A stretch of DNA of 64,000 bases from Bacteroidota bacterium (lineage in GTDB: Bacteria > Bacteroidota > Bacteroidia > Bacteroidales > SZUA-534), in contig QKGS01000067.1 in assembly GCA_003250355.1 (NCBI GenBank), forward strand, positions 1 through 64,000, read 5' to 3'. The translations under genes were made by a program, and so were the position numbers. This document shows, piece by piece, positions 17,074 through 19,296 of the stretch. A model generated the notes under the pieces. That model searched no databases. It had not been told where the DNA came from and saw nothing but the letters and a program-made list of their open reading frames with translations. The stretch's first letter is position 1. Each line of letters starts with the position of its first letter.

Positions 17074-17160
17074 GGAGAGTTGGGTGAGTGGCTGAAACCA
17101 CCAGTTTGCTAAACTGACGTACGGGTAACCGTACCGGGGGTTCGAATCCCCCACTCTCCG
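17074..17160 (+). tRNA. tRNA-Ser, anticodon GCT (reads AGC/AGU)
   Basis: An 87-base class II tRNA. The acceptor arms GGAGAGT and ACTCTCC pair, the anticodon GCT is at 17108-17110 in loop TTGCTAA, the long variable arm GTACGG-GTAA-CCGTAC is typical of serine, and the T arm is GGGGG-TTCGAAT-CCCCC. The discriminator base is G and CCA is not encoded. The outermost pair of the anticodon stem is a C:A mismatch. Its 3' end is duplicated imperfectly at 18004-18026, which marks it as an integration target. Confidence 0.95.
17138..17160 (+). repeat. tRNA-side copy of a 23-base direct repeat (putative att site)
   Basis: The T-arm and acceptor end of tRNA-Ser, GGGTTCGAATCCCCC onward, match 18004-18026 at 21 of 23 positions. 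tRNA 3' ends are common targets of tyrosine integrases, so this is read as attL. Confidence 0.65.
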
Positions 17161-17183
17161 CACATAAAATGTGTAGTTAAATG

Positions 17184-17215
17184 AAATCCAATCTTTTACA
17201 AGGTTGGATTTTTTG
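17184..17215 (+). terminator. Terminator after tRNA-Ser
   Basis: AAATCCAATC, loop TTTTACAA, GGTTGGATTT (one wobble), then a T-run. Confidence 0.85.
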
Positions 17216-17375
17216 TTTTTGTCAACTATCTTTAATGTTCTTATTCCTTAGTCATATACTTAAATCTTTTTATGGACTAAAAAAACTCTTTTTTAAGGTG
17301 TTCGTTTTGTCAGTTTTTAAAGGTTAATGATGTCGGTAGCATAAATAGTACATTCACTTTTTTGTTAGATTTTTT

Positions 17376-17405
17376 TTGAAAAAGCAAACATGAATGTTAT
17401 CTTTG
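17376..17405 (+). promoter_or_regulatory. Promoter of the XRE regulator gene
   Basis: TTG (17376-17378), 19 bases, TATCTTTG (17398-17405): full consensus. The 5' leader would be about 95 bases and contains a 13-T run at 17476-17488. Confidence 0.7.
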
Positions 17406-17432
17406 AACTGTAAAAGCAAACATTATTTGTTT
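17381..17432. promoter_or_regulatory. Candidate operators of the XRE regulator
   Basis: AAAGCAAACAT occurs at 17381-17391 and again at 17413-17423, 32 bases apart (three helical turns), one copy inside the promoter spacer and one at the likely transcript start. Each carries a small dyad: AACAT-GA-ATGTT at 17387-17398 and AAACA-TTATT-TGTTT at 17418-17432. Placement fits autorepression by the downstream HTH protein. Confidence 0.5.
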
Positions 17433-17506
17433 GATTAGTATTGATAAATACTAAATATAAAGTATTTGGATTGCATTTTTTTTTTTTTAATTTTAAAACA
17501 ACAAAA

Positions 17507-17812
17507 GTGAATGATTTTTTTGGATCGAGATTAAAGCAGTTAATCAAAACGTCTGAATATAAGACGATTAATAATTTTGCTGAAAGTGCGGGAGTACACG
17601 CAAATTCTATATCGAGAATTGTAAGTGGTCAGAATAATCCAAGTTATGACCTTATTATATCTTGTATAAACCTCTTCCCAAATACAGATATGTTTTGGTT
17701 ATTAACAGGTGAGAGTAGCGAAAGTAAGTTGGCTATTGAAAACAAAATGTTGCGAAAAAGAATATTTTCTCTTGAAAGGAAGAGAGAAGCAGCAGTAAAA
17801 GCCCTCCGGTAG
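17507..17812 (+). CDS. XRE-family helix-turn-helix regulator with C-terminal coiled coil
   Basis: 101 residues from a GTG start (VNDFFGSRLKQLIKTSE). A Cro/C1-type HTH covers residues 5-65: NNFAESAGVHANSISRIVSGQNNPS is the helix 2-3 region, then LIISCINLFPNTDMFWLLTGE, the standard ending in this Bacteroidota group. A basic helical tail (residues 75-101) probably dimerises. Such short regulators occur in integrative elements and phages. The frame can be extended to a TTG at 17441 but the extra residues encode a poly-Phe run from the T13 tract, so this was rejected. It has its own promoter and operator-like repeats, and lies in the tRNA-Ser scar. Confidence 0.85.
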   Translation: MNDFFGSRLKQLIKTSEYKTINNFAESAGVHANSISRIVSGQNNPSYDLIISCINLFPNTDMFWLLTGESSESKLAIENKMLRKRIFSLERKREAAVKALR

Positions 17813-18003
17813 CCGATAAAGTTCTCAGTTAACCTTGTGTTCGAAATTAGCACCTGTAAATTCGGTTACCAATAATTATAGGCTTACAATATTAGCGTAA
17901 AAGCAAAATATAGCAAGTTAGAAAATGGTAAACAGGTTGCAGAATTGGTTGCTTAGCCTTTTTATTAAAACGTAAGGAGTTTAAATTTATGTGATTATGG
18001 GCA
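17813..18003. other. Non-coding residue between the XRE gene and the distal tRNA repeat
   Basis: No frame of credible length and no RNA gene was seen. The stretch starts with GTTCTCAGTT, also found in the argF'-bcp inverted repeat. It is probably eroded element DNA. Confidence 0.4.
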
Positions 18004-18026
18004 GGGTTCGAATCACCCACTCTCTG
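18004..18026 (+). repeat. Degenerate second copy of the tRNA-Ser 3' end (putative att site)
   Basis: GGGTTCGAATCACCCAC continuing to CTCTCTG matches the tRNA 3' end at 21 of 23 bases, with changes at repeat positions 12 and 22. No upstream D or anticodon arm is present, so it is not a second tRNA gene. It is followed by a terminator-like hairpin analogous to that of the real tRNA. Confidence 0.7.
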
Positions 18027-18058
18027 TAAAGTAACGTAACAGTTTCAGAAAAAACAGT

Positions 18059-18090
18059 AATCGAATGTCGTAATACGTTCGATTTTTTTT
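18059..18090 (+). terminator. Hairpin and T-run after the distal tRNA repeat
   Basis: AATCGAATGT, loop CGTAAT, ACGTTCGATT (one wobble), then about eight Ts. It may be the original tRNA-Ser terminator displaced by insertion. Confidence 0.8.
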
Positions 18091-18115
18091 TACCCAACCG
18101 AAAAGTAACAGATTT

Positions 18116-18214
18116 ATGAAAGTATTGTTTTGGTTTGCAAAAAGTAAACGTAATAAGCAAGGGTGTGTTTCTGTATATTGTCGTGTTACAATTTTGCTGT
18201 TGAAAACTAACTAA
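18116..18214 (+). pseudogene. N-terminal stump of a Bacteroidota tyrosine recombinase (integrase)
   Basis: A 32-codon frame, MKVLFWFAKSKRNKQG then CVSVYCRVTI, matches the start of the arm-type DNA-binding domain of Bacteroidota integrases (pattern lFWlrKSK.NKkG.aPIYCRIT). It breaks where the family continues with a NGKR-type turn and ends in a stop six codons later. The SAM-like core and catalytic R-H-R-Y domain are missing. Position, 89 bases after the distal tRNA repeat and pointing away from it, is where integrase genes of such elements normally sit. Confidence 0.7.
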
Positions 18215-18294
18215 TACAAAATATTACTATATACACTAAACTTGTATTCGTTTTTTTAATTTTACGTTAGTTAAATGCTCAAAAAAATATTGAA

Positions 18295-19296
18295 ATGAAA
18301 AATATGGTACTTTCCACTTTATTTAGTGTTGCTTTTTTTATGGTTGTTTTTTCTGCTTTTTCTCAAGTTGAAATTGAAGAAATGCGTTGGGGTGCCGATT
18401 TTAATATTCACATTACATTTTCAAATGACTCAACTTCAATAATGGATGTAAAAGGTCTTCATCACTCATCTGTTTCAAACTACAACGAGTCGGATAATGA
18501 AGTTACTTATTATCCGGTTAAGCTCGACCATGCCTTTGTGGACGCACTTAAAGATAAAAAAATTGAGAGTTTTGTAGATACAACGCAAAATAGTAAAGAC
18601 AGTACTTTGGTTAAGAGCAAAACACTTTGGAGTGCAATACACTCAAACATAGGTGGAGGTTGGATACATTTTATCAATTGTCTTGTATATGCTATTGAAT
18701 CGGGGCAGGTTGATTTATATTCGCCTTTAATGAAGCGACCTGTATCTGATTGGAAACCAAAGCCAATGACGGAATCATTCAAGAGAACAAAAAACTGGGA
18801 ATGTTATTATCCAAATACTCAAAAACTTGCCCACAAAGAGTATAAAATTAAGGCAGGTAAAGGTGAACTTGGAAATATAAACCTACTCCCTGAATCATTT
18901 ATAAATACTTTTTTGGAAACCGATGATAAGCAATTGTTGGAGCTGAAAAATCCGAATAAGCTTGCAATTATTAATATGGTTAGGTTGTTGCTTGGAGCAA
19001 ATTATTTGGGACAGGAACAAATTGACTATTTGCAAAACTCAGTACTTTTTGCTGTAAAGCGATATTCTGTTAATAGTCTTCCTTCTGTAATAATTTTCGA
19101 TGATTTTGAAGCAGCTGTTGCTATGACACTTGATAATAGTGGTTATAAAATTGAAAAAATAACTTTTAATAATGAAAATGAATTATCAGATGAAATCAAA
19201 TATCAACGAATAGAAAGAATGAATGGCATTATTTCTAAAATAAATGATGTAAACAAAAAAGTATTTGAGCAAAAACTGAAAAGCTATTACAATTAA
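18295..19296 (+). CDS. Secreted protein of unknown function
   Basis: 333 residues. A signal peptide covers about residues 1-23 (FMVVFSAFSQ, likely cut after FSQ or SAF). The mature protein is periplasmic or exported, with no lipobox and no T9SS sorting domain. The middle has GGGWIHFINCLVYAIESG and the last third looks alpha/beta with KLAIINMVRLLLGANYLG and SLPSVIIFDDFEAAV. No family recognised. It starts 80 bases after the integrase stump, so it may be leftover cargo, or native. Its stop shares the palindrome TTAA with the convergent manA stop. Confidence 0.75.
   Translation: MKNMVLSTLFSVAFFMVVFSAFSQVEIEEMRWGADFNIHITFSNDSTSIMDVKGLHHSSVSNYNESDNEVTYYPVKLDHAFVDALKDKKIESFVDTTQNSKDSTLVKSKTLWSAIHSNIGGGWIHFINCLVYAIESGQVDLYSPLMKRPVSDWKPKPMTESFKRTKNWECYYPNTQKLAHKEYKIKAGKGELGNINLLPESFINTFLETDDKQLLELKNPNKLAIINMVRLLLGANYLGQEQIDYLQNSVLFAVKRYSVNSLPSVIIFDDFEAAVAMTLDNSGYKIEKITFNNENELSDEIKYQRIERMNGIISKINDVNKKVFEQKLKSYYN

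Follow-up and report, generated by a model that had tools for sequence, protein, structure and literature searches.

A probable decayed tandem of tyrosine-integrase elements behind tRNA-Ser(GCU) in a Bacteroidota genome

Behind the tRNA-Ser(GCU) gene of this Bacteroidota genome, tyrosine-integrase elements have probably inserted in tandem at the 3' end of the gene and since decayed, a reading to which we assign a probability of about 0.7. Insertion of elements at tRNA gene ends is a common route by which bacterial genomes gain and lose mobile DNA. Within the window (the whole stretch of 64,000 nt that was analyzed, to which bare coordinates refer; the parts of the locus lie on its forward strand), the locus holds a repeat of the tRNA 3' end, an arm shared with a second element of the same genome and an integrase-like stub, and the same tRNA site is used by integrase-bearing elements in relatives. 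From this layout we infer that the remnants go back to separate integrations, and in which order these took place. Comparisons covered 59 other genomes of the order, or 393 including its own for the arm; the window's genome is the sole member of its genus in these sets.

The displaced tRNA-Ser 3' end

The tRNA-Ser(GCU) gene lies at 17074-17160/61, and its stretch from the T-arm to the 3' end (17138-17160) forms one copy of the putative attachment site. A displaced copy is found at 18004-18026, which we read as a second attachment site and the junction of two remnants. The two copies agree at 21 of 23 positions and are separated by 844 bases (end of the first to start of the second), which bears out the earlier note that the last 23 bases of the tRNA recur there with two changes. 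They provide the direct repeat of a tRNA 3' end at both ends that marks a tRNA-targeted element. A chance repeat was rejected: shuffling the spacer (17162-18300) 500 times under a first-order Markov model gave best matches with 8 to 13 mismatches, compared to the 2 observed. A whole-genome pattern search placed the 23-nt site at only these two positions in the 3.7-Mb genome.

Outside the 23 nt, the tRNA locus and the copy locus share no clear similarity, with sharp limits at the T-arm and at the 3' end. Because similarity ends at both borders, the remainder of the tRNA was not copied. It is established that a tyrosine integrase leaves a repeat spanning the T-arm to the tRNA 3' end (compare PMC4383910). 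In its extent, from the T-arm to the tRNA 3' end, the copy is what would be expected of an attachment site for a tyrosine integrase. Partial tRNA copies are also possible without integration, and the displaced copy could be such a pseudo-tRNA, produced by partial gene duplication with no mobile element involved. We regard this as highly improbable, as the copy starts exactly at the T-arm, lacks any 5' part and is adjoined by an element arm and an integrase-like stub.

A hairpin and then a stretch of Ts come after each of the two copies. The first terminator hairpin (17183-17212) lies ~23 bases 3' of the tRNA and folds clearly better than shuffled sequence (z = -3.2), while the terminator-like hairpin behind the displaced copy (18059-18084; ~33 bases downstream) is less clear (z = -1.8). 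The earlier note had remarked on a similar placement of the two. Under the tandem model, the first hairpin would have been brought by the inner element and the second would once have served the tRNA.

The inner interval and its arm

Between the two copies lies a gene for an XRE/Cro-CI type regulator (17507-17812; 101 aa from a GTG start, or 123 aa from an upstream TTG). Its presence had been called from the sequence before, and the gene is real, matching Pfam HTH_3 above the cut-off. The protein also shows sub-cut-off likeness to the RstR and HigA repressors. Its relatives are few: one weak match to an Acidobacteria record in genome_contigs (49% across 37 residues), one weak phage record, none in viral_contigs and at most 42% identity among the 59 other genomes. 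Upstream of the gene, two 29-nt direct repeats (17363-17423; 32 nt apart and 76% alike) form a candidate operator. Judged on these sequence features, the protein is plausibly a phage- or element-type repressor and its gene plausibly the control gene of the element, with which it probably arrived. No integrase gene was found within 17161-18003; the stub described below lies outside this interval.

Closer to the tRNA, a 101-bp element arm (17218-17318) shares 86% identity with the end lying nearest the tRNA in a second element of the same genome, hereafter the C16 element (arm at C16:40580-40679; E = 1.6e-26). The arm begins 57 bases after tRNA-Ser at the window locus and 68 bases after tRNA-Arg(CCU) at the other. 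When 17162-17510 was searched against the 393 genomes of the order, matches stronger than E = 1e-9 occurred in the window's own genome only; the other 392 held nothing comparable to the arm, the own genome held no second copy beyond C16, and the arm as an exact pattern had 0 matches in genome_contigs and viral_contigs. The next match after the own genome came from a genome of another family (G401, L082 1480-1565; E = 9.8e-9), where a stretch behind tRNA-Ser is 88% identical to 17184-17226 (43 bp), which takes in the terminator and the very start of the arm. With a match of only 43 bp and no displaced tRNA-Ser copy found, an element at that place is no more than a possible reading.

The C16 element (L034 10454-16770, G000:C16) spans 6.3 kb and is integrated at tRNA-Arg(CCU); at its far end, 17 of 19 bases match the 3' region of tRNA-Arg (the best of 500 shuffles had 5 mismatches). 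Its integrase carries Arm-DNA-bind_5 and SAM-like domains and a catalytic domain that falls slightly short of its Pfam cut-off. The other genes encode a Gp49/HTH pair that looks like a toxin-antitoxin system, an HTH protein of excisionase type in appearance and a protein with a weak match to Rep_trans; no transfer gene was recognized among them. The Rep-like protein has relatives in 15 other genomes of the 393, and in two of these genomes (G035 and G173) an integrase-like frame lies ~3 kb from the relative. The sequence TTTGTCAAC occurs in the arm at both loci and twice more towards the distal end of that second element, which suggests a candidate integrase arm site. At the distal end of the inner remnant no TTGTCAAC arm was found, and decayed C16-element genes sought in the scar gave no convincing protein similarity (best E = 0.018).

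These observations bear on whether the 843-bp segment is still a mobile mini-element, carrying both sites and excised by the integrase of another element. Both sites survive with only two changes between them, and the genome encodes the C16 integrase, whose element has the same arm. We nevertheless give this very little credence: the C16 element occupies tRNA-Arg and has a core unlike the one here, and the arm region has no further copy in its own genome beyond C16 and no comparable one in the 392 other genomes. There is likewise only a slim chance that the inner segment is a minimal non-autonomous unit (two tRNA-Ser sites, arm and XRE gene) moved by other integrases, in which the XRE gene would be kept to repress or exclude incoming relatives. 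Under the preferred reading, a decayed tandem, the segment would be the remnant of the second of two elements.

The integrase-like stub and the tRNA site in relatives

Beyond the displaced copy, a 32-codon frame (18116-18211) appears to be the stub of an integrase gene. It opens with MKVLFWFAKSKRNKQGCVSVYCRVTI, which resembles the start of tyrosine integrases from Bacteroidota, and its first ~25 residues resemble the N-termini of Arm-DNA-bind_5 tyrosine integrases. The stub scored 20.4 bits against a profile of 14 integrase N-termini, a score reached by 0 of 20,000 shuffles (maximum 9.8), and ranked first among the window's 1754 six-frame peptides (runner-up 12.3). The 14 N-termini were taken from integrases of Pfam family PF17293 and were not picked by likeness to the stub; of 16 phmmer matches, 2 were dropped because their N-termini were dissimilar. 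Restoring these two rows gave a score of 24.1, and adding three rows found through the stub gave 26.5. The stub had no match in Pfam, NCBIfam or plasmids. Across 198 genomes (own included), only weak matches were found apart from the stub itself; the two strongest (E = 0.005 and 0.007) fall in short or interrupted frames, and many others in frames of 380-440 codons. Neither the stub nor the arm match had been described in the earlier note.

The stub starts 90 bases past the displaced copy and points away from the tRNA. Given this orientation and a position past the copy at 18004, it falls outside the interval from the tRNA to 18026, and at least two integrations are therefore the simplest reading. 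Because no third copy of the tRNA-Ser end was found beyond the stub within the window, the far boundary of the outer element is missing. Further downstream, a 333-aa protein (18295-19296) has no Pfam match and occurs in 18 other genomes of 60, mostly of the same family; none of the places listed for it adjoins the tRNA-Ser matches.

The locus might instead represent one element only, running from the tRNA to 18026 and reduced to its XRE gene, with the stub being either an integrase fragment unconnected with it or a peptide that arose by chance. The 23-nt copies bound this interval exactly and Pfam does not recognize the stub, both in keeping with a single element. We consider it unlikely, since none of its shuffles and no other window peptide scores as high as the stub, and since its position past the copy repeats a layout of tRNA, terminator and integrase stub that is also present in another genome (G008). 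There, a terminator and then an Arm-DNA-bind_5 stub in an 89-codon frame follow the same tRNA, as in the window from 18004 on.

Matches to the locus in the 59 other genomes of the order consist of tRNA or tRNA-like 3' ends and a few weak, short pieces of the spacer. None spans the spacer, and no close relative of the entire scar was found; a search with 17800-18294 yielded only short, weak matches in the other 392 of 393 genomes. An identical arrangement in all relatives, named in the earlier note as the outcome that would refute it, was not seen in the 59 genomes. The upstream context is partly shared: a DUF3127 gene precedes tRNA-Ser, as in the window, in three genomes of the same family, two of which also have a flotillin-like gene.

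The comparison of sister loci proposed in the earlier note, for a full element or an empty site, turned up both in genus g4, a sister to the window's own genus, from which the set held no second member. In G003, ~22.4 kb separate tRNA-Ser from a 17-18-bp copy of its 3' end (17 exact), and the intervening element encodes an integrase near its far end, a DUF5712 protein and others. G019 aligns to both flanks of this element, on the left up to the tRNA end and on the right from the copy onward, with an 18-base overlap, and on this alignment is the matching empty site. The right flank of G003 also matches G010 over 50 bases at 100%. From these flank matches, the terminator that follows the copy in G003 is the one directly behind the tRNA in G010, and nearly identical to that in G019.

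We looked at the tRNA-Ser neighborhood in 12 of 19 same-family genomes, among them G003 with its full element and G008 with its stub; four (G001, G007, G013 and G015) fit no class. A native-looking terminator lies directly behind tRNA-Ser in G010, G012, G014 and G019, and in G002 a fragment resembling an integrase lies 3.4 kb downstream. G005 carries a displaced copy ~113 bases downstream, with 2 mismatches in its last 15 bases and interrupted further up; the G005 tRNA may have exchanged its 3' part for one supplied by an element. The T-stem sequence of the G005 tRNA-Ser (L069 3358-3600) differs from that of the displaced, interrupted copy. A 1424-codon frame lies near tRNA-Ser in G059 (L078 488-4762), and its start looks Cas9-like by eye. 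Taken as a whole, tRNA-Ser(GCU) is a recurrent integration site in this family.

The shared arm, the full element and empty site of relatives and the stub make an integration scar at tRNA-Ser a well-supported reading of these sequences. The earlier description of the locus, as a small element of which the control gene is left, stands as regards an integration scar; a single element fits less well with the stub lying outside the interval, and no observation points to a small original element.

Proposed history and known systems

In the proposed history, an element would enter the tRNA gene in its T-arm/acceptor portion, and with the 3' end and terminator that the element brought, the tRNA would remain complete. 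The first element would then have decayed to its attachment site, a terminator and ~25 integrase codons, which form the outer remnant (18004-18211). A second element, with a tRNA-proximal end related to that of the C16 element, would have inserted at that same site in turn and been worn down to the arm and one XRE gene, leaving the inner remnant (17161-18003).

Tandem decay at a tRNA gene is a known kind of structure, and the finding is real but ordinary. It offers a worked example of a tRNA site reused and worn down by successive elements, with little wider consequence unless the XRE gene acts on incoming elements.

Several described systems resemble parts of this locus. The tRNA-gene islands of Islander, as presented in PMC4383910, have ends marked by a regenerated tRNA and a displaced fragment, as here; those islands are tied to a tyrosine integrase, whereas the interval here has none inside. 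NBU2 is a mobilizable element of Bacteroides at the 3' end of tRNA-Ser (PMC13188876; table in PMC5704250), and the likeness, one of description, lies in the tyrosine integrase and in the tRNA-Ser 3' end as target. NBU2 is intact with mobilization genes, and no NBU2 gene was identified here.

The proposed history follows the accretion scheme outlined in PMC5704250, in which an element integrates, decays to a cis-mobilizable element (CIME) and is joined by a further element integrating at the site that holds the gene end. In the terms given there, CIMEs have lost their integration and transfer genes and kept their attachment sites, and both the loss and the retention are seen at this locus. The tandem differs in that nearly everything has been lost. 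Descent from a conjugative or mobilizable parent (an ICE or IME) is putative, as is mobilization in cis by an incoming element; the arm is common to the C16 element, in which no transfer gene was recognized. With these differences, the locus resembles tandem accretion of CIMEs as described in that source, a decayed tandem at the 3' end of a gene.
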